From a virus: 64,000 bases of DNA. Numbering within the stretch: the stretch's first letter is position 1; the number at the start of each line of letters is the position of its first letter. Positions 2,180 through 16,657 of the stretch are shown in pieces. The notes under the pieces were generated by a model. The model was given only the letters and a program-made list of their open reading frames with translations, did not search any database and was not told the origin of the DNA. The stretch is taken from positions 1-64,000 of the IMG/VR virus record IMGVR_UViG_3300021599_002318. One strand, 5' to 3'. Position numbers and translations under genes: made by a program.

Positions 2180-3454
2180 ATGTCTAACAGTAAAATTTTT
2201 ATTCAAATCGCATCATACAGGGACCCACAGTTAGTTCCAACACTCAAAGATATGATTGCAAACGCTAAAAAACCAAAGAACTTGGTTTTCTCAATCGCAA
2301 GACAATTTAGTGAAACAGATGGATTTGACAACTTAGATGAGTTTAGAGAAGATAAAAGATTCAAGATTTTAGATATACCTTATCAAGAATCTAGAGGCGT
2401 TTGTTGGGCAAGAAACTTAACCCAACAACTTTACGATGGTGAAGGATACACAATGCAAATTGATTCCCACATGAGATTTGTAAAGGATTGGGATGAAATA
2501 TTAATAAAAATGATTAAGGGTCTACAAAAGGATGGGTATGAAAAACCTCTACTTACGGGTTATGTGCCCTCCTTTGACCCTGAAAATGACCCAGCGGGAA
2601 GGGCACAAGATGCTTGGAGAATGGCATTTGATAGATTCATTCCTGAGGGTGCTGTGTTTTTTCTCCCTGAAACAATTCCTGGTTGGAGAGAGATGACAAA
2701 ACCCGTAACAGCGAGATTTTATTCTGCACATTTTTGTTTTACTTTGGGTCAGTTTTCTCTAGAAGTCCAACACAATCCTGAATATTACTTCCACGGAGAA
2801 GAAATCTCAATTGCAGCTAGAGCTTACACATGGGGTTATGATTTATTTCACCCTCACATTCCTGTTGTCTATCATGAATACACACGTAAGGGTAGGACAA
2901 AACAATGGGATGATGACAAAACTTGGGGTGAGAAAAACAAAGTATCCCATTTGACCAACAGAAAACTTTTTGGTATGGATGGTGAAACCCAAGAGGGTCA
3001 TGATGGACCTTATGGTTTTGGTCCTGTGAGAACTTTAAGAGAATATGAGAAGTATGCTGGTATTTTATTTGAAAAGAGAGCTGTTCAAAAATATACACTC
3101 GATAAGAATTATCCTCCAAACCCATATAACTATTCATCAGAGGAAGATTGGAAAAATGATTTTGCTAAGGTATTCAAACATTGTATAGATATTGGATACT
3201 CACAGGTTCCTGAAACGGATTATGATTTTTGGGTTGTGGCTTTCCACGGACCTAACGACGAAACTTTATTCAGAAAGGACTCCGACAAAAATGAAATTGC
3301 TGGTTATATGAGAGACCCTGACAAATATTGTAAGATTTGGAGAGAATTTCAAACGGACGTTACTCCCACATATTGGGTTGTTTGGCCTCACTCGGTATCA
3401 AAAGGATGGTGTGATAGAATCACTGGACAATTAAATCATAATGTTGTAAGCTAA
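2180..3454 (+). CDS. GlcNAc-type glycosyltransferase (GT60/Skp1-GnT-like)
   Basis: 424 residues. The N-terminus (KIFIQIASYRDPQLVPTLKD) and the QIDSHMRF block at about residues 92-99 match the GlcNAc glycosyltransferase family (Pfam PF11397 type), whose best-known members transfer GlcNAc to hydroxyproline of eukaryotic Skp1. The D-S-H triplet is the expected DXD-like metal and nucleotide-sugar site. No signal peptide or membrane segment is visible, so it should act in the infected-cell cytoplasm. First gene of a four-gene glycosyltransferase operon; the stop overlaps the next start as TAATG. The family call rests on recognised motifs; the acceptor is unknown. Confidence 0.8.
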   Translation: MSNSKIFIQIASYRDPQLVPTLKDMIANAKKPKNLVFSIARQFSETDGFDNLDEFREDKRFKILDIPYQESRGVCWARNLTQQLYDGEGYTMQIDSHMRFVKDWDEILIKMIKGLQKDGYEKPLLTGYVPSFDPENDPAGRAQDAWRMAFDRFIPEGAVFFLPETIPGWREMTKPVTARFYSAHFCFTLGQFSLEVQHNPEYYFHGEEISIAARAYTWGYDLFHPHIPVVYHEYTRKGRTKQWDDDKTWGEKNKVSHLTNRKLFGMDGETQEGHDGPYGFGPVRTLREYEKYAGILFEKRAVQKYTLDKNYPPNPYNYSSEEDWKNDFAKVFKHCIDIGYSQVPETDYDFWVVAFHGPNDETLFRKDSDKNEIAGYMRDPDKYCKIWREFQTDVTPTYWVVWPHSVSKGWCDRITGQLNHNVVS

Positions 3455-4197: not shown

Positions 4198-5071
4198 GTT
4201 TATAACCGCAATTTATAGTGACCTTTATGGAACTGAATTTGGTGGTAGACCTAACAGAGGTGCCCACTATAGATATAGTTTATTGTCATTATTGAAGATG
4301 ACCGATGCGGATTTTTTATGTTATACCTCGGATAGAGAAATAGATTCCCTAAAGAAATTTTTCTATGAAGAAAACAATATACCAGAATCCAAGTTGAAAT
4401 TTACAACATACGATATTTCAAATTCCAAGTTTAAACATTTAATTGATTCGAGAAAAAATGTCGATGAGATTAAAAGAGGGGATAGATGTATCGAAATACA
4501 ATATTCTAAATTTTCATGGTGGTGGAATGAGGATAAATCCTACGATAACTATTATTGGATAGACGCGGGATTATCCCATTGTGGTTTAATACCTCTCAAG
4601 TATTTGACTGAAACAAAACATGCCTTAAGAAGATTTTATGAAAGCAATTTGTTTGATAATGATTTTTTGAAAAATTTGATAGAAGACACTAAAGACAAAT
4701 TTTTAATTTTAGGAAAAGAAAATGAAAGAAACTATTGGTCAGGAACTGTAAGTCCAAGATGGTATAAAAATTATGATAGAAGTATTCATATCATAGGAGG
4801 ATTGTTTGGTGGTCACAGGGACAAGTGGGATAATATAGTCAATATATTCGAAAACTATGTCCAAGAAGTTTTATCTAACGATGAGGGTTTACCTCATGAA
4901 GAACAAATAATGACTCTTATGTATTTCAATCATATTGAGTTATTTGAGAGAAAACATTTTGATATTTGGTGGTGCAGGGATAATGCACCTCAAGGTGTAA
5001 CAGATGAGTTATTTCAGAAAAATAAAAGTTTCTATAAAATATTAGAAGAATTTAAAAGAATTTATGAGTAA
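4187..5071 (+). CDS. probable HtrL/YibB-like glycosyltransferase
   Basis: 294 residues. The region YYWIDAGLSHCG at about residues 123-134 parallels WIDGGLTN in the next protein and the Trp-(I/V)-Asp-(A/G/F)-Gly signature of the HtrL/YibB family. A second conserved-looking stretch, IIGGLFGGHRDKW at about 203-215, recurs as ARGGFFGGPKH in the next gene. These shared blocks suggest that genes three and four of the cluster are paralogous at their N-terminal domains. No signal peptide. It overlaps both neighbours. Glycosyltransferase is inferred from the motif and context; this gene on its own is less certain than the others. Confidence 0.55.
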   Translation: MSTKFITAIYSDLYGTEFGGRPNRGAHYRYSLLSLLKMTDADFLCYTSDREIDSLKKFFYEENNIPESKLKFTTYDISNSKFKHLIDSRKNVDEIKRGDRCIEIQYSKFSWWWNEDKSYDNYYWIDAGLSHCGLIPLKYLTETKHALRRFYESNLFDNDFLKNLIEDTKDKFLILGKENERNYWSGTVSPRWYKNYDRSIHIIGGLFGGHRDKWDNIVNIFENYVQEVLSNDEGLPHEEQIMTLMYFNHIELFERKHFDIWWCRDNAPQGVTDELFQKNKSFYKILEEFKRIYE

Positions 5072-6737
5072 TATAACACTTGTAACAGGAATTTGGGACA
5101 TCGGAAGAGGTGATTTAAGTGAAGGTTGGTCAAGACCTTTTCAACATTATTTGGATAAATTTGAAAAACTATTGGATGTCAATACCAATATGATTATCTA
5201 TGGTGATAAAAGTTTAGAGGAATTTGTTTTTTCAAAAAGGGATAAGTCAAATACACAATTTATTGTAAGAGACATGTCTTGGTTCAGGAATAATGAATTT
5301 TTTGATAAAATCCAAAACATAAGAAATAACCCTGAGTGGTATAATCAAGTTGGTTGGTTAAAAGATTCAACTCAATCGAGATTGGAAAACTATAACCCGT
5401 TGGTTATGTCAAAAGTTTATCTTTTGAATGATGCAAAAATAATGGATAGGTTTGATTCAGAATATCTGTTTTGGATTGACGGTGGGTTGACAAATACTGT
5501 GCATCCTGGTTACTTTACACACGACAAGGTTTTGGATAAATTAGTAAAATATATCTCCAAATTCAGTTTCGTTTGTTTTCCTTATGAAGCTAATACAGAA
5601 GTCCACGGGTTCAATTTCGATAAGATGAACTCTATGGCAGGTGCTAAAGTTGAGAGGGTTGCTAGAGGTGGGTTCTTCGGTGGACCAAAACACTCAATAT
5701 CAGAAATCAATTCAATATATTATTCTCTGATGAAAGAAACCTTGGATTCGGGATATATGGGAACTGAAGAATCTTTATTCAGCATAATGTGTTATAGACA
5801 CTCCGAGTTAATAAATTATTTTGAAATAGAATCAAATGGTTTGTTAGGTAAATTTTTTGAGGATTTGAAGAACGATGATTTGAAAGTAAAAACAGAATCA
5901 GTTCATAGACAAGTTTCAAATTTGGATATTAACAAAGTTGGTCTATATGTTATAACTTTCAATAGTCCAAACCAATTCAAAACGTTGATTAATTCAATGT
6001 TAATGTATGATAAAGAATTCATACTTAAAACAAAAAAATTCTTACTTGATAACTCAAGTGATTTGTCAACAACAGAAGAGTATAAACAACTTTGTGATGA
6101 ATATAATTTTGAACATATCAAAAAAGATAACTTGGGTATTTGTGGAGGAAGGCAGTGGATTGCAGAACATTTTGAAGAAACAGATTTGGATTATTATTTG
6201 TTTTTTGAAGATGACATGTTTTTTTATCCGAATGAAGGTTCGAAATGTAAAAACGGTTTTTCAAGATACGAACCAAATCTATTTTCAATCTCGATGCAAA
6301 TAATGCAAAAGGAAAACTTTGATTTCTTAAAATTGAATTATTCTGAATTCTACGGAGATAACGGGACTCAATGGTCTTGGTATAATGTTCCTCAAGATGT
6401 TAGGTCAAAGTATTGGCCCTTAAATCCAAGATTACCACAAATAGGATTGGACCCGAATGCGCCAAAGACAGAGTTCAAAAAAGTTCTTTCACACAGAAAA
6501 GTTCCATATGCGACAGGCGACATATATTATTGTAACTGGCCTCAAATTATTTCAAGACCAGGTAACAAAAAAATGTTTTTGGATGTTACTTGGGCACATC
6601 CATTTGAACAAACGTGGATGAGTCATATGTATCAACTGACAAAAGAAGAAAAATTAAATCCTGGTTTACTTCTAATGACACCAACTGAACACGACCGTTT
6701 CGAACATTACAACAGAGAGTTACGTAAAGAGTCCTAA
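5064..6737 (+). CDS. two-domain glycosyltransferase (HtrL/YibB-like + GT2-like)
   Basis: 557 residues. The N-terminal domain (about 1-270) has the family opening ITLVTGIWDIGRGD and an FWIDGGL acidic motif, as in HtrL/YibB proteins. The C-terminal domain (about 290-557) looks like a GT-A fold, family-2 enzyme: GLYVITFNSPNQF at its start, DNLGICGGRQW for the sugar-nucleotide pocket, and FFEDDMFF as the DXD-type site. A fusion of two transferase domains suggests two consecutive sugar additions. Last gene of the cluster; it overlaps the gene before by 8 bases and ends 16 bases before the next start, with a late-type motif between. Confidence 0.7.
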   Translation: MSNITLVTGIWDIGRGDLSEGWSRPFQHYLDKFEKLLDVNTNMIIYGDKSLEEFVFSKRDKSNTQFIVRDMSWFRNNEFFDKIQNIRNNPEWYNQVGWLKDSTQSRLENYNPLVMSKVYLLNDAKIMDRFDSEYLFWIDGGLTNTVHPGYFTHDKVLDKLVKYISKFSFVCFPYEANTEVHGFNFDKMNSMAGAKVERVARGGFFGGPKHSISEINSIYYSLMKETLDSGYMGTEESLFSIMCYRHSELINYFEIESNGLLGKFFEDLKNDDLKVKTESVHRQVSNLDINKVGLYVITFNSPNQFKTLINSMLMYDKEFILKTKKFLLDNSSDLSTTEEYKQLCDEYNFEHIKKDNLGICGGRQWIAEHFEETDLDYYLFFEDDMFFYPNEGSKCKNGFSRYEPNLFSISMQIMQKENFDFLKLNYSEFYGDNGTQWSWYNVPQDVRSKYWPLNPRLPQIGLDPNAPKTEFKKVLSHRKVPYATGDIYYCNWPQIISRPGNKKMFLDVTWAHPFEQTWMSHMYQLTKEEKLNPGLLLMTPTEHDRFEHYNRELRKES

Positions 6738-10273: not shown

Positions 10274-11401
10274 TTAGATTACGTAGATTTGACGAGGCAT
10301 TGCTCTGAATTTCATTTGTTTATTTAAATTTTCAGCAATTTGTGCTTCTCTTTCCATAACCTTTTCAGGTCTTAGTCTTGTAAGCCATCCTTCAGCGCCC
10401 GTCAATTCTTCCATCAGTTTAGATTTTTCATCCTTGGCTTCAGTTAAAAGACTGGTGTAATCCATTGTAATTTCAGAATCAGGTGTCTTAAGATTCCCAC
10501 TGTATTTACCTCTCACTCTTGCTAAGGTTTCTTTACAATATGCTGTAAACCATCTTCTTATCCATTGTTGTCCAGGAACATTGATATCTTCCCAACTCAA
10601 GGATTCAAGAGGAACGTCAGTCGGTAGTTTGATAATGTCAGGATTGTTTTTAAGACAATCAGCTCTACTGTCTGGTGTTACATCATAATACCAATACCAA
10701 ACCGCTTTACCAGCATACATGTTGAAATTAGCCCAGTTAAATTTACCACCAGGGGTATTCATCAAGTGTATCAACTTTTTACCATCAGGTAATGCGGTAA
10801 TCCTATATGTCATAGAACCACCGAGAATTCTATTCAAGATATTTGCTTCTTGCATTCTGATGAGGTAATCAAAACCAGACATCATAAAATAAGAACCTTG
10901 GTATCCCATCTGAGCGTATCCTGCTTCATTGGCACCCAAACCTATACCACCGAATCCAAATCCACCAAGACCTCCAAGTCCGAATGCTGTCCAAGCCTGA
11001 TTACTAAACCAAAGAAGTTCATTGACTTCTCTGTTGGCTGGTATTTCGTATGTCTGAACATTCTTTTCAATTATGAAATAATCTTTCTTCAAGACCCATG
11101 GTCCTACGGTCTGAAGTCCAACAATCTTAGAATACGAATATGCAAATTGTTGTTCGAAGTCCATTGTCCTTGTAACCAAAGCTCTGGCAACAGACTTTTC
11201 ATTCATATTGAGGTTTACTAAGTTAACCCATTGTGAATCGATTAGCCATTGTAGAATATATTCTTCATAATCACCAATAGATAATTCCATTAGCGAGTCC
11301 ATCATTTCGTCTTCTAATTCTACACTTCTTAAGGGTGCTCCCAACAAGTGTTTGACTCTTGTATAAATTTTACTTCTTTCTGGTTCTGGTAGTGCTGCCA
11401 T
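10274..11401 (-). CDS. 13: neck protein, T4 gp13-like
   Basis: 375 residues (T4 gp13 is 309). gp13 closes the filled head and joins it to the tail. The opening IYTRVKHLLGAPLRSVELEDEMM aligns with the gp13 opening, which contains LGAP followed by VEL. The C-terminal block (RRWFTAYCKETLARVRGKYSG, then a Leu-Thr-Glu-Ala/Lys-Glu helix) matches the gp13 C-terminal helices. A Gly-rich loop near residues 140-160 also occurs in T4 gp13. It is encoded on the minus strand although the next neck genes are on the plus strand. A late-type motif sits 5 bases before the ATG. Confidence 0.85.
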   Translation of the reverse strand: MAALPEPERSKIYTRVKHLLGAPLRSVELEDEMMDSLMELSIGDYEEYILQWLIDSQWVNLVNLNMNEKSVARALVTRTMDFEQQFAYSYSKIVGLQTVGPWVLKKDYFIIEKNVQTYEIPANREVNELLWFSNQAWTAFGLGGLGGFGFGGIGLGANEAGYAQMGYQGSYFMMSGFDYLIRMQEANILNRILGGSMTYRITALPDGKKLIHLMNTPGGKFNWANFNMYAGKAVWYWYYDVTPDSRADCLKNNPDIIKLPTDVPLESLSWEDINVPGQQWIRRWFTAYCKETLARVRGKYSGNLKTPDSEITMDYTSLLTEAKDEKSKLMEELTGAEGWLTRLRPEKVMEREAQIAENLNKQMKFRAMPRQIYVI

Positions 11402-11419: not shown

Positions 11420-12958
11420 TTATTCTATTTCGTGTAGTAGTGAACTAACGTTGAAGACATATTGGTTTTTATCACTTATAGGGTCGTTTTTGAATATAAG
11501 TATCTTATTTGTTTTAGGATTAATAAAAATATACCAATCGACTTCGTAATGCTTAACATTTCCTGTATCCAAAAGTTTAACTCTGTCCTCGATTATTGAA
11601 ACATTAGAGAATGGTTTAACCTGTGCAGAAAACTTTTTTCCATCTAAAATCACATTTACATCAATACCTTTGAAGGCGTCTTGTTTTCCACCATGTGAAC
11701 CAATCTTTTCAATTTTAGCATTACCATCAAAATAGTCTTCTATTTTTTTAATTGCGTTGTCTTCAGACTTTTGACCCCTATCCCAAAGTTTTTTAAGGAC
11801 TTTGATTATATTGATAAAGTCTTCGTTATTCTCTGTAAAGATTTCGTTTCTGAAGTGGTCCAATGCTGAAATAAATCTAGTTGTTTCCTTTAGAGTTCTT
11901 TTTTCTTTTTTTGAAAAATCAAACTTCTTTTCTGACCTTCCAATTAATTCAATCTGTTTGTTTACTGCTTTTACCAATAAACAAAATGTATTGAAATTTG
12001 TATTAAGGTTATTGAGTATAGACCTACCCTCGGGTGATTCTACACCATAAAATCCTGACATCTCTTCAGTATTACCCTCAACCCAAAAATGTGAAAATAC
12101 TTTTTTTAGAACGTAGGATACTCCCTCCTGATATCTTTTTTTGATTGCGTAATTATTAATCAAGTCTCTATAGAACAATACTTCTTTTGGATTACAGAAT
12201 TGTGGTTCTTTTGATTCAGTAATTATTCCTTGAAATTTGTTCGACTCTAGTAGTTTTGTTTCAACTTTCATTTCATAAAGTTTCTGAACAAAATCCCAAT
12301 TGACCACCTTCCAAAAATTTGAAATGTATTCGTCTCTCTTATTTCTGTATTTCAAATAGTAGGCGTGTTCCCAAAGGTCCAAACCTAATAGAGGGAAACC
12401 TCCACCTTCGATAACATTCATAAGTGGATTGTCTTGATTTGGTGTCGACATTATTTTCAAAGTATTTTTTGAGGTTAAAATTAACCATACCCAACCTGAG
12501 CCAAATCTATCCTTTGCAACAGTTTCAAATTTCTTTTTGAATAGATTGAAACTACCGTATTCTTTGGTAATTTTTTTATACAATTCCCCTGTTAATTTTT
12601 TTGGTGTTGGAGACAACATATTCCAAAAAAGTGCGTGATTGAATGCTCCTCCAGCGTTGTTCCTTACTACTTGGTCGTATCGACTAATGTTTTTGACAAT
12701 TTTTTCTAAGTCTAAATCTCCATGTTTTTTCTTTGACAGGGCGGCATTTAATTTATCTACATATCCCTTATAGTGTTTGTTGTAGTGGAAATTCATCGTT
12801 TCTGCGTCGATGAATCCTTTGAGGGCTGAATAAGAATAGGGTAGTTTTTCTATTCCAATTTTTTTCATTTCTGTAATCAACAATTGTTTTTCTGTTTCGA
12901 TATGGTTTTCGGTAATTTGTTTTTCAATTTGTTGAATTCTTTCTTCTATTTTTTTCAT
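11420..12958 (-). CDS. Mn-type superoxide dismutase fused to a PD-(D/E)XK-like domain
   Basis: 512 residues. Residues 1-35 look like a coiled coil. About 40-225 is a full iron/manganese superoxide dismutase domain with all four metal ligands: His58, His108 (NNAGGAFNHALFW), Asp194 and His198 (LGLDLWEHAYYLKY). Gly103-104 and Gln175 (NQDNPLM) are the second-sphere pattern of the Mn form, so superoxide dismutation is expected. About 390-460 has a restriction-endonuclease-like pattern: E399, then GID with D433, then QVK with Q446 and K448. That domain may bind or cut DNA; activity is inferred. No signal peptide, so it acts in the cytoplasm or in the virion. It sits between gp13 and a helicase/SET operon with its own late-type motif. 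A standard bacterial SOD is about 200 residues, so more than half is extra sequence. Confidence 0.85.
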   Translation of the reverse strand: MKKIEERIQQIEKQITENHIETEKQLLITEMKKIGIEKLPYSYSALKGFIDAETMNFHYNKHYKGYVDKLNAALSKKKHGDLDLEKIVKNISRYDQVVRNNAGGAFNHALFWNMLSPTPKKLTGELYKKITKEYGSFNLFKKKFETVAKDRFGSGWVWLILTSKNTLKIMSTPNQDNPLMNVIEGGGFPLLGLDLWEHAYYLKYRNKRDEYISNFWKVVNWDFVQKLYEMKVETKLLESNKFQGIITESKEPQFCNPKEVLFYRDLINNYAIKKRYQEGVSYVLKKVFSHFWVEGNTEEMSGFYGVESPEGRSILNNLNTNFNTFCLLVKAVNKQIELIGRSEKKFDFSKKEKRTLKETTRFISALDHFRNEIFTENNEDFINIIKVLKKLWDRGQKSEDNAIKKIEDYFDGNAKIEKIGSHGGKQDAFKGIDVNVILDGKKFSAQVKPFSNVSIIEDRVKLLDTGNVKHYEVDWYIFINPKTNKILIFKNDPISDKNQYVFNVSSLLHEIE

Positions 12959-12964
12959 ATTGGC

Positions 12965-12991
12965 GAGTTATTCGTTTTATATAAATAACTC
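12965..12991. promoter_or_regulatory. inverted repeat around the SOD-fusion promoter
   Basis: GAGTTATT (12965-12972) and AATAACTC (12984-12991) are perfect inverted copies 11 bases apart. They overlap the late-type motif (12981-12987, minus strand) that lies 22 bases before the start codon. This could be an operator or an mRNA hairpin. Confidence 0.45.
12981..12987 (-). promoter_or_regulatory. late-type motif TATTTAT (minus strand)
   Basis: It lies 22 bases upstream of the SOD-fusion ATG, embedded in the right arm of the 8-base inverted repeat. Confidence 0.5.
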
Positions 12992-13235: not shown

Positions 13236-14996
13236 TTAAGGGCGTAATTCGTTTATTCTTTTCAGAATTTCTTCGGCAGTGTCACCGATGTTTTGATTGT
13301 CACCCATAACGGTCGCGATGACTTGCTTCTTATTATTAAGTATGTCATATATCGCGCCTTCGATTGTGTTTTCAAATATTGGATAATAGACTAACACATT
13401 ATTTTTTTGTCCAAATCTGTATGCCCTATCTTCAGCCTGAGAGTGGTCCGATGGTAGGAATGATAAGTCGTTCATAATAACCGCTTCTGCGGAAGTCAAA
13501 GTAAGTCCAACACCCGCAGCCTTTATGTTACCGACAAAAACTTTTATTTTATCATTTTCTTGAAATTGGTCAACACTAAATTGTCTATCTTGTTTTGTCA
13601 TTGACCCATCAACTTTGACGGCAGTTTTTCCAAAATGTTGAACAATTTGATTTAGTGAATCTGTGAAGTTACAAAATATGATAACTTTTTTGTCCTGCTC
13701 TAATATGTTTTCGGCAAGTTCTATTGTTTGAGATATTTTCTCGTTGGCAATAACTTGTCTAACTTTTGTAAGTTTTGAAAATTGAACTGTTAACGATTTT
13801 GACTCGTCGGGGTTTTTATCATACCAATTATAATATTCCCCCATGAGTTCTTCATAGTCCTTTGATTTGAGTCTGAGATAAACAGGTGTGATAATTTTTT
13901 CAGGTAAATCCAAAACGTCTTCTTTCAATCTCCTTAGGATTGTATTCGAGGTTCTATCCCTTAGTTCATCTAAATTAGACGCACCCATTACGTTCCATAC
14001 TTTCCTTGCTCCGACCTTGAATTGATATCCACTGCAATATCTTATGACGTAGGCCATCCAGTTCTTGGCAACAGGGGAATCTACGAGACTCAATAAATTA
14101 TAATAATCAATTGGTCTTGATGTCATCGGTGTTCCTGTTAATAACCAAAGTCTGTCAATTTTTTTTATGAAGTCGTTTATAAGTTTGGTTCTTTGTGCTT
14201 GAGCATTTTTGATATAGTGTGCTTCATCAATAACAACCAAATCAAAATTGGCTCTAAGAATTTGCGAATCATCTTTCTTTTTAGGGTCATGGAAGTTTTT
14301 TAGAATGTCGTAGTTTATGATTACAAAGTCGTGTTCTGTGCTAAAGTTTTTACCCTCCGCTATGTATATTGTCCTGTCAGAGTAATTTTCAATTTCACGC
14401 TTCCAGTTTATCTTCAAAGTTGCGGGACATATGATTAAAACCTTTTTAGCCCCTGTTTCTAAGGCTGCAATTATAGTTGAGGTTGTTTTACCCAAACCCA
14501 TATCATCGGCCAAAATATATTTTTTATTTTCAACCAGTTTCTGAATGGATTCTTTTTGATGGTTTAACGGGGGTCTGTTTGAATATTTTTCAAAATCGAT
14601 GACAACGTCTTTAACGGTGTTGTCTTTTATTATAGAAGCCTTGGGTAACCAAAAATCATGTAGTTGTTCAGAGTCCCAAATCTTTCCCCAAATATGATAA
14701 GCTTTGTCCTTCTCCGCTAGAAGTTTTTCAACCCAGACTTTTTGTGGGATTTCAGTATACATCTTGTCGTCAGCTAATTTCTGTGCAAAATATGCGTCTA
14801 AAATTACCCACTTTTTGGCAACTTTGGGTTGTTTGTCGTGGTTATTGATTATGTATTCTGATTGACTTCTTGTTGGGTAGAATTTTTTATTTACTTGGGA
14901 TTTCCTTTGTAGTTCCAAGATATAATTGTTATACCCCTCATATTGTTCAAGAAGTGTTAGTGCTTTTGACTCGAGTGATATTTCTGATAAGCTCAT
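13236..14996 (-). CDS. SNF2-family DNA translocase/helicase
   Basis: 586 residues. Motif I ADDMGLGKT (163-171), Ia ICPATLKINW, II DEAH, III TGTP, V GVGLTLTSA and VI QAEDRAYRFGQ are all intact. This is the SF2 SNF2 layout, closest by eye to the SMARCAL1/ZRANB3-like annealing helicases rather than to T4 UvsW. The first 140 residues form an extra N-terminal domain of unknown type. Likely role: ATP-driven remodelling of DNA-protein complexes or replication forks in the infected cell. Its start codon overlaps the SET gene stop (4 bases), so the two are translationally coupled. Confidence 0.92.
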   Translation of the reverse strand: MSLSEISLESKALTLLEQYEGYNNYILELQRKSQVNKKFYPTRSQSEYIINNHDKQPKVAKKWVILDAYFAQKLADDKMYTEIPQKVWVEKLLAEKDKAYHIWGKIWDSEQLHDFWLPKASIIKDNTVKDVVIDFEKYSNRPPLNHQKESIQKLVENKKYILADDMGLGKTTSTIIAALETGAKKVLIICPATLKINWKREIENYSDRTIYIAEGKNFSTEHDFVIINYDILKNFHDPKKKDDSQILRANFDLVVIDEAHYIKNAQAQRTKLINDFIKKIDRLWLLTGTPMTSRPIDYYNLLSLVDSPVAKNWMAYVIRYCSGYQFKVGARKVWNVMGASNLDELRDRTSNTILRRLKEDVLDLPEKIITPVYLRLKSKDYEELMGEYYNWYDKNPDESKSLTVQFSKLTKVRQVIANEKISQTIELAENILEQDKKVIIFCNFTDSLNQIVQHFGKTAVKVDGSMTKQDRQFSVDQFQENDKIKVFVGNIKAAGVGLTLTSAEAVIMNDLSFLPSDHSQAEDRAYRFGQKNNVLVYYPIFENTIEGAIYDILNNKKQVIATVMGDNQNIGDTAEEILKRINELRP

Positions 14997-15388
14997 TTTA
15001 CTTCAATGTGACTTCTACCGTCAGACCAATAACTTTCATCACCATAATAAGTTGTGACTTCCTCATCTTTCGAAATTGGTTTTGTTGCTTTAAATCTTAA
15101 AATGTCTTTGTCCAAATCGTCTTCCCATGTTGCGTTATAGTTTTCGGAATGGTTATATAGTGAACCATATCCAAGAGCAATAACGTGGTTTTGCCAATTC
15201 TCTCCTTTTGGAAATACAAATGTATAGTCAATTAAGGTGTAGTTTGTTTCTCCTCTTTGAACAGGTAATCTAAGAATCGGACACTCTTCAATAACCTCAC
15301 CCTCGTTTATGTCTTCACATGCGAAAACCCCCCAACCGTGAATTGAACTTTTTCTTACTTGTAGTTTTGTATTTCTTTGAATTTCCAT
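14993..15388 (-). CDS. SET-domain protein (putative protein lysine methyltransferase)
   Basis: 131 residues, essentially a bare SET domain. SSIHGWGVFA (14-23) is the SAM-binding motif. GSLYNHSENYNATW (75-88) corresponds to the N-H-S/C-x-x-P-N motif, and KDEEVTTYYGD (108-118) is the GEE-x-x-x-x-Y motif with the candidate catalytic Tyr. No post-SET cysteines. SET enzymes methylate lysines on proteins using SAM; the target is unknown (host nucleoid protein, ribosome or virion). First gene of the minus-strand operon; it diverges from the neck gene at 15447. Confidence 0.88.
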   Translation of the reverse strand: MEIQRNTKLQVRKSSIHGWGVFACEDINEGEVIEECPILRLPVQRGETNYTLIDYTFVFPKGENWQNHVIALGYGSLYNHSENYNATWEDDLDKDILRFKATKPISKDEEVTTYYGDESYWSDGRSHIEVK

Positions 15389-15964: not shown

Positions 15965-16657
15965 ATGAGATTTATTTTAAAAGAATCACAATTGGGTTTT
16001 TTATTAGAACAAATATCCTATGACCCAAATGTTGAAATCATACAAAAGTATCTGATAAAAAAGGGGTATGATTTGGGTAAGTATGGTCCAAACAAAGATG
16101 GAGTGGATGGTAAGTTAGGACCTTTGACAAGAGGTGCGATGGAACAAGAGTTTGGTTTGAAAATTGTGAGAAAAGGTTCCTCATCACAAAAAACATCTGG
16201 TGAGTATGATGCAATTTTAGTTGGGGGGTTAGATAATAGGTCTGGTGACTTAAATATAGATTCACAAGTAAGTTTATTGAAACAGGGGATTGGAACTGAA
16301 AAGAATGTTAAAGGTTTTAGGTTTAACACACCATCCTCTACAATTATAGATTTTATCAATAAAAACCCAGGAATCCCGATTTATCTTTTCAGTGCGGGAT
16401 GCAGGAAATCTAATGAGATTTCAAATGTCTTGGGTCAAAATAAAAATAACTTGTTCATCATTGAGCCATATGCTGCTGGAAGTGAAACGAAAAATAATGT
16501 AAGAAATGCTGTGAACAACGGAGTTCCTGCTTCAAATGTTTTTGTTGGAAACTCAGTCGGGAGAGGACAAGGGATTGTGATTGGGGCGAGTTCATCCAAG
16601 TCAGACTCTCATTGGAATGCACTTAAAACTGTGGGTTCAATGACTAAAAATAATTAA
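15965..16657 (+). CDS. peptidoglycan-binding-domain protein with unknown C-terminal domain
   Basis: 230 residues. Residues about 18-65 fit a PG_binding_1 repeat: VEIIQKYLIKKGYDLGKYG, then GVDGKLGPLTRGAMEQEFG. This binds cell-wall peptides in endolysins and amidases. The C-terminal 150 residues (from about YDAILVGGLDN) look like an alpha/beta domain with strand-loop patterns such as IYLFSAGC and NVFVGNSVGRGQG. I cannot assign it to a known lysin class. It lies two bases after the gp14-like gene and one base before the gp15-like gene, so it is part of the neck operon. It may be a virion-associated or lysis enzyme; no signal peptide. Confidence 0.7.
   Translation: MRFILKESQLGFLLEQISYDPNVEIIQKYLIKKGYDLGKYGPNKDGVDGKLGPLTRGAMEQEFGLKIVRKGSSSQKTSGEYDAILVGGLDNRSGDLNIDSQVSLLKQGIGTEKNVKGFRFNTPSSTIIDFINKNPGIPIYLFSAGCRKSNEISNVLGQNKNNLFIIEPYAAGSETKNNVRNAVNNGVPASNVFVGNSVGRGQGIVIGASSSKSDSHWNALKTVGSMTKNN

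Follow-up and report, generated by a model that had tools for sequence, protein, structure and literature searches.

A phage protein family joining a superoxide dismutase to a predicted PD-(D/E)XK-type nuclease domain, with C-terminal modules exchanged at one locus

Phage-encoded superoxide dismutases (SODs) have been interpreted as auxiliary metabolic genes (e.g., PMC12542629), and giant eukaryotic viruses are described as carrying SOD in their virions (PMC9405923). In phage T4, short N-terminal capsid-targeting sequences bring proteins into the head, and L/I-X-E is given as the published cleavage motif of the prohead protease gp21 (PMC9026906). The main text of the survey of polyvalent phage proteins does not contain the word superoxide (PMC5512222), and the main text of the paper on moraphages, large phages that come mostly from freshwater and whose hosts are predicted to be Bacteroidota, is silent on it (PMC12619734). 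The DREN nuclease of the SPARDA system is described as having a PD-(D/E)-XK fold with catalytic residues D41, Q60, and K62 on strands 2 and 3 (PMC12205087). A first-pass annotation of the DNA studied here had reported a SOD joined to such a nuclease domain and knew of no described family combining the two; in the open-licence literature, we likewise came across no account of a SOD fused to a nuclease, nor of exchanged modules following the SODs of phages.

The window analyzed is a stretch of 64,000 nucleotides (positions 1 to 64,000 of IMG/VR record IMGVR_UViG_3300021599_002318). The fusion gene and the features around it are as follows, with counts out of 75 referring to the distinct fusion proteins described below.

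11420..12958, minus strand: whole ORF, ATG start, 512 aa, SOD-middle-nuclease protein
12869..12958, minus strand: residues 1-30, N-terminal helical extension ending in ITE30, possibly resembling a capsid-targeting sequence
12269..12853, minus strand: residues 36-230, Fe/Mn superoxide dismutase of the Mn type (Pfam, PDB relatives, invariant residues)
12245..12253, minus strand: residues 236-238, LLE, candidate prohead-protease site, kept in 75/75
12215..12223, minus strand: residues 246-248, ITE, candidate prohead-protease site, kept in 71/75
11825..12214, minus strand: residues 249-378, helical middle region (model)
11423..11824, minus strand: residues 379-512, predicted PD-(D/E)XK-type nuclease domain (model, structure comparison, invariant motif)
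11762..11764, minus strand: codon of E399, in the helix before strand 1, 75/75
11660..11662, minus strand: codon of D433, in strand 2, 75/75
11615..11623, minus strand: codons of Q446-x-K448, in strand 3, 75/75
10274..11401, minus strand: gp13-like neck gene, downstream neighbor (phrog_211, E 1e-9)
13236..14996, minus strand: SNF2-type helicase, a large gene, upstream neighbor
12980..12987, minus strand: promoter-like TATTTATA, read on the coding strand, 21 nt ahead of the start codon

The first ~35 residues of the 512-aa protein form a helical extension, modeled with low confidence as a single helix (residues 2-33) in the full-length model, after which the SOD begins. Pfam matched Sod_Fe_N at residues 36-116 (E 1e-22) and Sod_Fe_C at residues 123-226 (E 1.4e-39), both far above cut-off, and NCBIfam also identified this half as a SOD. 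Its closest PDB relatives are bacterial SODs (best 6gsc, E 1.4e-60), to which H58, H108, D194, and H198 align. We take these three histidines and one aspartate to be the metal ligands, and Q175 of the C-terminal domain together with the G103/G104 pair of the N-terminal domain to be signs of a Mn-type enzyme. By its domains and residues, the first half of the ORF is a complete Mn-type Fe/Mn SOD, with dismutation as its predicted activity. The first-pass annotation had read it in this way, and both Pfam domains, together with H58, H108, Q175, D194, and H198, which are present here and invariant in 75/75 fusion proteins, bear it out.

A scan of viral contigs with the fusion protein returned at least 595 related stretches, many of which are probably other SODs, as the search patterns included SOD peptides. 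The best 80 of these covered the query end to end or from residue 10, with 71 to 100% identity, and the matches listed included identical copies of the fusion on contigs of 317 to 321 kb; an assembly join is ruled out by the presence of the identical fusion on several long contigs. The family set, restricted to stop-terminated ORFs of 480 aa or more, comprises at least 75 distinct fusion proteins and leaves out a frame-shifted copy (L097) and two copies at contig ends (L099 and L108). The frame-shifted gene (L097:834-2278) is the only split copy seen and could reflect either an assembly error or decay. A search for the same domain pair in other phages, as the first-pass annotation had suggested, was thus answered by at least 75 distinct complete proteins in which both active sites are invariant.

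In the SOD half, H58, H62, Y66, G103, G104, H108, W156, Q175, D194, W196, E197, H198, and Y201 are found in 75/75 proteins, and in the C-terminal half the same is true of E399, G423, D427, G431, D433, Q446, K448, V468, Y471, and W475. Five diverged relatives (44 to 58% identity) retain E399, D427, D433, Q446, and K448, and they also keep the SOD residues H58, H108, Q175, D194, and H198. Every part of the fusion is under purifying selection, the median dN/dS being 0.021 for the SOD, 0.062 for the middle region, and 0.076 for the nuclease (135 pairs, 74 distinct coding sequences); decay of the nuclease half is ruled out by the last of these values. Further scans took as query the whole C-terminal half, just the nuclease, or a short middle-region motif; two of them returned the best 80 of 126 and the best 80 of 112 relatives, and among the relatives listed no C-terminal half without a SOD was seen. 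In the first 241 overlapping loci, 238 ORFs matched both halves, the three SOD-only ORFs were phage SODs fetched as such, and the sole ORF matching only the C-terminal half belonged to the frame-shifted copy. Named phages matched the SOD half only (29 records, query residues up to 246).

Profile searches assigned the C-terminal half to no family. Pfam on residues 236-512 gave no credible match, PHROGs gave nothing credible (best E 0.053, residues 430-458), NCBIfam, which recognized the SOD only, and PADLOC gave no match, and PDB sequence-profile searches (A2 and A6) gave no convincing one (best E 0.21 and 0.38). When Pfam was searched member by member, Pox_polyA_pol_N was hit by 7/16 and 2/11 members (best E 0.028) and ArsA_ATPase by one member (E 0.00024); both were taken as chance. 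A bacterial-genome scan with this half yielded 49 stretches fitting the pattern, with no relative among them. For the nuclease domain proposed by the first-pass annotation, none of these profile searches gave a convincing match.

Modeling the whole protein gave a poor result (pLDDT 70) that matched only SODs in the structure comparison; residues 238-512, modeled separately from 39 sequences, reached a mean pLDDT of 85. In this second model, D433 lies in strand 2, Q446 and K448 lie in strand 3, and E399 lies in the long preceding helix; two extra strands follow strand 3, and the last core strand has no helix assigned ahead of it. By title, the first 30 rows of the structure comparison were restriction enzymes, Holliday-junction resolvases, the SPARDA nuclease, or I-Ssp6803I, and, DREN apart, we take these enzymes to be members of the PD-(D/E)XK superfamily. 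The top row was the resolvase Hjc (2wiw; Z 6.6, 3.8 A across 99 residues), a best score that falls under the tool's caution line of 8. SPARDA chains stood third and fourth (Z 6.2 and 6.1; 9qcc, Z 6.2 over 115 residues), and further rows included NhoI (8q5n, Z 6.1), I-Ssp6803I (2ost, Z 5.8), PvuII, and DpnI. Foldseek against the PDB gave no match at an E value of 0.001 or below, the best being 2ost (I-Ssp6803I; E 0.025, probability 0.99).

With Z below 8 and no Foldseek PDB match at that threshold, the nuclease assignment rests on the fold and the invariant motif together. Taken in this way, the C-terminal domain is supported as being of the PD-(D/E)XK type, with nuclease activity predicted. 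The earlier PD-(D/E)XK proposal is upheld by the pLDDT of 85, the nuclease titles of the first 30 rows, and the motif invariant in 75/75, the structural match being a modest one, and a separate prediction of the C-terminal half (residues 238-512), a check of the kind that this annotation had proposed, did yield a nuclease-type fold, at Z below 8. For the middle region (residues 249-378) no fold match was seen; the structure rows mostly cover model residues 154-275 and so hardly bear on it. In a viral structure library, the top match, at 29% identity (E 4e-16), was a 501-aa protein of an uncultured Caudovirales phage that bears the name superoxide dismutase, suggesting that a relative of the fusion is already public under the name of its first half. 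The second library match, a 1113-aa protein of an uncultured marine phage (BFVD A0A8D9CCA0), resembles the middle-plus-nuclease model with 20% identity (E 7e-13).

The high rank of the SPARDA chains (third and fourth, Z 6.2 and 6.1) raises the possibility that the SOD oligomer is a scaffold holding nuclease domains together, much as oligomerization switches on DREN, a tetramerization-activated nuclease whose reported D41, Q60, and K62 (PMC12205087) follow the same D..QxK order as the residues of the fusion. We consider such a role improbable, given that all SOD ligands and the other checked SOD residues are kept, which argues that the SOD is no mere scaffold, and that the candidate cleavage sites described below lie between the SOD and the nuclease. 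In its pure form the scaffold role is ruled out by the retained active-site residues, and the first-pass suggestion that the SOD fold could serve as a scaffold for DNA cutting found no direct support.

A wider scan of viral contigs used the SOD motif DLWEHAYY with Val, Ile, or Met replacing Leu; the SODs it returned were picked by a motif close to that of the fusion family and are thus no random sample. It gave at least 95 distinct ORFs, namely, 31 plain SODs (two cut at the start), 3 with a short stub, and 61 extended SODs, defined as having at least 100 residues past the SOD joint. Among the modules of the listed extended SODs, type A accounts for 19 ORFs, type B for 18, and type C for 16 (window included), and the others form small groups or singletons. 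Type C is the nuclease module of the 512-aa window protein and the only one modeled. Profile comparison related it to type A (probability 97.2, E 4.6e-11), in which nE..A and GQD...QVKP, both invariant, align with E399 and the QxK strand; a weaker relation (89.4, E 2e-6) linked it to the L401/L458 module, represented by two sequences only. No relation to type C was detected for type B (probability 0.0), and type B as another nuclease is ruled out. In light of these profile relations, two payload types, and perhaps a third, look similar to PD-(D/E)XK nucleases. Type B (L419:1172-3364, L446:7184-9376, L400, L405, and others) is a module of ~370 aa with a conserved LYWSnKGQrgCdEKRl.IRFRI stretch, and Pfam on one such module gave no match.

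These comparisons also bear on whether the C-terminal domain has a nuclease fold without nuclease function, acting instead in DNA binding or as a structural element. We think this improbable, even though neither Foldseek, at an E value of 0.001 or below against the PDB, nor sequence profiles gave a convincing match: E, D, Q, and K are invariant in 75/75 proteins and persist in the diverged relatives, and the second module type matches the same four residues in the profile alignment (probability 97.2).

Ahead of the SOD, an HExxH sequence occurs in 36/61 extended and 23/29 scorable plain phage SODs (listed ORFs) and is absent from the 512-aa window protein. In L446, L395, L402, L418, and others, the N-terminal 150 residues hold this module, with LAHEWVHEYQ in L446 and L401. 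Pfam on the pre-SOD region of ten phage proteins found no named domain despite the HExxH, which may mark a metallopeptidase of the polyvalent-protein kind. Among bacterial SODs, 0/86 ORFs from the 80 nearest genome loci (45 to 58% identity; ~68/80 Bacteroidota by title) had more than 60 residues after the SOD. For a midpoint-rooted tree, the bacterial SODs were thinned to every second one (40 sequences) and the window's fusion family to one in eight; the sampled phage SODs (78/78) grouped together, separate from the bacterial ones, with a support of 0.67 for the phage side and 1.0 for the bacterial side.

The first-pass annotation had placed the fusion among neck genes. This is right for the downstream side, where the gp13-like gene lies (phrog_211, E 1e-9), and not for the upstream side, where the neighbor is the SNF2-type helicase; a DNA polymerase gene is also close to the fusion ORF. 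Directly upstream of the helicase, a SET-domain protein (14993-15388, minus strand; Pfam SET, E 5e-13) forms a pairing that struck us as unusual. In the window's fusion family, an SNF2 helicase match lies upstream in 73/75 loci and a gp13-like match downstream in 75/75, all on the same strand. The corresponding counts are 17/19 and 13/19 for type A, 16/18 and 17/18 for type B, 13/15 and 12/15 for other type C, and 28/31 and 23/31 for plain phage SODs, three of which have gp13 upstream instead; the count scored side and strand within the locus, not adjacency. A downstream flank of more than 1.2 kb was present in 64 fusion-family, 13 type A, 17 type B, 8 other type C, and 18 plain loci, indicating that many of the neighbor misses are contig or locus ends. 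All phage SOD architectures thus share one locus, SNF2 helicase-SOD-gp13-like neck gene.

A gp13 tree was built from the 65 distinct proteins among 72 sequences no shorter than 300 aa, the window's fusion family being sampled at one in six. Along it, the module type switches 19 times, a number that recombination between the gp13 and SOD genes could inflate; the minimum is 4, and shuffled labels give a mean of 36 (lowest 31). Lying between these bounds, the observed number indicates that module types are partly inherited, yet often replaced. In the closest unlike pair, L419 and L373, gp13 is 99%, the SOD 96%, and the N-terminal module 96% identical; one of the two carries a long type B module, and the other ends soon after the SOD. 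The SOD is the constant core of this locus, and close relatives gain, lose, or swap the C-terminal module.

Repeated gain and loss at one site would be expected if the C-terminal modules were mobile homing-type endonucleases that had joined the end of the SOD reading frame and propagated by cleaving alleles that lack them, and the best Foldseek PDB match is indeed the homing endonuclease I-Ssp6803I (E 0.025, probability 0.99). However, no free-standing copy was seen among the 414 module-matching ORFs from overlapping loci, 412 of which contain a SOD, the others being one at a contig edge and the frame-shifted copy. Moreover, the exchanged type B module has no profile relation to the nuclease, and in the window's clade the module is fixed and under purifying selection. 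We therefore regard a homing-type origin as decidedly unlikely.

The sequence [LI]-x-E recurs where the parts of these proteins meet. In the 75 fusion proteins it is found at residues 28-30 (75/75), 236-238 (75/75), 246-248 (71/75), and 15-17 (70/75), and outside the joints it is similarly frequent only at 195-197 in the SOD active-site stretch (71/75) and at 508-510 (68/75), with 40 each at 4-6 and 227-229. The 61 other extended phage SODs (distinct, listed) carry it in the post-SOD joint in 61/61 and in the pre-SOD joint in 51/51 scorable cases; in these ORFs it occurs 285 times in 4225 joint positions versus 251 times in 25337 others, with the joints of related proteins not being independent. 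Against 301 observed occurrences, a composition control in which the joints' own residues were shuffled 500 times gave a mean of 133 and a maximum of 164. Directly before the SOD, the motif is present in 27/29 scorable plain phage SODs versus 7/75 bacterial SODs. The N-terminal extension resembles a coiled coil, where L/I and E recur, and the residue following the first site (ITE30) is Met, unlike the E-A of the capsid protein.

A gp21-type protease (PF03420) was found in 6/6 long contigs of the window's fusion family (5 over cut-off) and in 0/14 controls; four of the six carry an identical fusion protein, so that they represent three distinct phages. A gp23-type capsid gene was present in 3/3 records of this family, and in its product SHLINE-ASS aligned with SFLTE-AEI of T4 gp23, which we take to be the exact cut position in the T4 protein. 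Among 16 further phage-SOD records, PF03420 occurred in 2, both with a plain SOD and none with a long C-terminal module, and gp23 in 4; the two gp23-bearing records without PF03420, with modules A and C, carry this capsid gene right at a contig end, and 12/16 are without gp23 as well as PF03420. We infer that ITE30, LLE238, and ITE248 are candidate prohead-protease sites. A similar L-T/K-E-S...[LI]xE start was noticed in several phage proteins (L476, 3561-4031 and 5991-6572; window, 15965-16657) and is possibly a capsid-targeting signature of this phage group.

The same motif could instead reflect coiled-coil heptads or helix caps in a cytosolic bifunctional enzyme that is never packaged, the SOD protecting replicating or packaging DNA and the nuclease trimming or resolving phage DNA. 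The helix modeled with low confidence at residues 2-33, the helicase and polymerase genes nearby, and the Hjc resolvases heading the structure list would all suit such an enzyme. Nevertheless, [LI]xE is enriched above the composition control in the post-SOD joint too, phage SODs without a C-terminal module retain the pre-SOD motif, and frequent module exchange is unexpected for a housekeeping resolvase, so that we judge the cytosolic enzyme to be unlikely.

The first-pass annotation had also given the gene a late-type promoter. The exact TATAAATA lies on the opposite strand, whereas the coding strand carries TATTTATA, which the gene has in common with six other genes of the window. Within 50 nt upstream of the start and on the coding strand, TATTTATA precedes 7/40 window genes versus 0.17 expected, namely, the fusion ORF, a gp25-like baseplate gene, and five genes without a named family; it stands 4 to 33 nt before the starts at 91, 12958, 22169, 23650, 25534, 47343, and 58541. 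The looser TATTTAT precedes 12/40 window genes, adding the sheath gene and the neck gene. TATTTATA is perhaps a late-promoter element of this phage group, and its position before the fusion gene is suggestive, no more, of late expression. The protein is possibly made late and packaged, as the first-pass annotation had suggested, and TATTTATA before the baseplate gene, the [LI]-x-E joints, and the gp21-type protease fit this. Near the window start lie a GlcNAc-type glycosyltransferase (E 5e-66) and an HtrL_YibB-family protein (2180-3454 and 5064-6737).

That the SOD stays constant while the apparently processed polyprotein around it is often reshuffled, next to a neck gene, points to cargo of the virion, and module exchange at one locus is as expected of cargo in an arms race. 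With the fusion being a family, its module exchanged, its joints marked by [LI]-x-E, and a gp21-type protease encoded alongside, what looked like an odd bifunctional enzyme becomes probably processed, exchangeable cargo. In full, we would put at slightly under an even chance that the fusion is a polyprotein made late, packed into the head, and cut by the prohead protease, so that the SOD and the nuclease are delivered together with the DNA. Transcription would start from the TATTTATA promoter-like site, also found ahead of the baseplate gene, and the N-terminal extension would target the polyprotein into the prohead. There the protease would cut after ITE30, LLE238, and/or ITE248, as the conserved motifs and the gp21-type protease in the genome suggest, freeing the Mn-SOD and a middle-plus-nuclease fragment inside the head. 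Both fragments would then enter the cell with the DNA, the SOD removing superoxide around the incoming genome and the nuclease fragment cutting host or rival DNA.

More tentatively, the phage SODs as a whole may form a polymorphic effector class, in which a constant, captured Mn-SOD carrier with prohead-protease joints, encoded at one fixed locus, would be packed in the head and released on infection; within minutes, the phage would be quenching superoxide and attacking nucleic acid of the host or of rivals. Its C-terminal payloads would be interchangeable (two or three PD-(D/E)XK types, at least one unrelated type, or none), often with an N-terminal HExxH module. Superoxide would then be a possible challenge to a phage as it enters the cell, and the link between oxidative stress and phage infection becomes testable. 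The locus also offers a set of uncharacterised payload modules named by position, and the T4 internal-protein idea would be extended to large uncultured phages.

Compared with known systems, the phage SOD is like bacterial Fe/Mn SODs in both Pfam domains and all ligands, but the sampled phage SODs form their own clade, stand behind an [LI]xE joint, and in many cases carry C-terminal modules. The stand-alone SODs of Vibrio phage 2.275.O and the PA5oct group are likewise Fe/Mn SODs of large phages, at 27 to 28% identity, but, unlike the fusion, consist of the SOD only. The nuclease domain shares with Hjc resolvases, SPARDA DREN, and I-Ssp6803I the order of helices and strands and the placement of E, D, and QxK (best rows Z 5.8 to 6.6 over 99 to 115 residues), but differs from them in its 8 to 14% identity, the absence of a sequence-profile match, its two extra strands, and its fusion to a SOD. 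For homing endonucleases, a free-standing or intron- or intein-encoded gene would be expected, whereas the phage module ORFs hold a SOD in 412/414 cases. With the gp21-processed internal head proteins of T4 (IPI-III and Alt), the likeness lies in the gp21-type protease, the gp23-type capsid protein, and the L/I-X-E joints, while the fusion, whose packaging is predicted, combines two predicted enzymes in one chain with internal candidate sites. Like the polyvalent proteins surveyed by Iyer et al. (2017, PMC5512222), the fusion unites domains of disparate predicted activity in one phage polypeptide; a zincin-like metallopeptidase is given as the commonest domain of that class, which the N-terminal HExxH modules of the relatives may resemble, by motif, although the window protein has no HExxH. 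We would place the fusion, as a proposed member, among the virion-delivered multi-domain phage proteins, to which it would bring a new core, a new combination of domains, and a history of exchanged cargo that is unusually clear.
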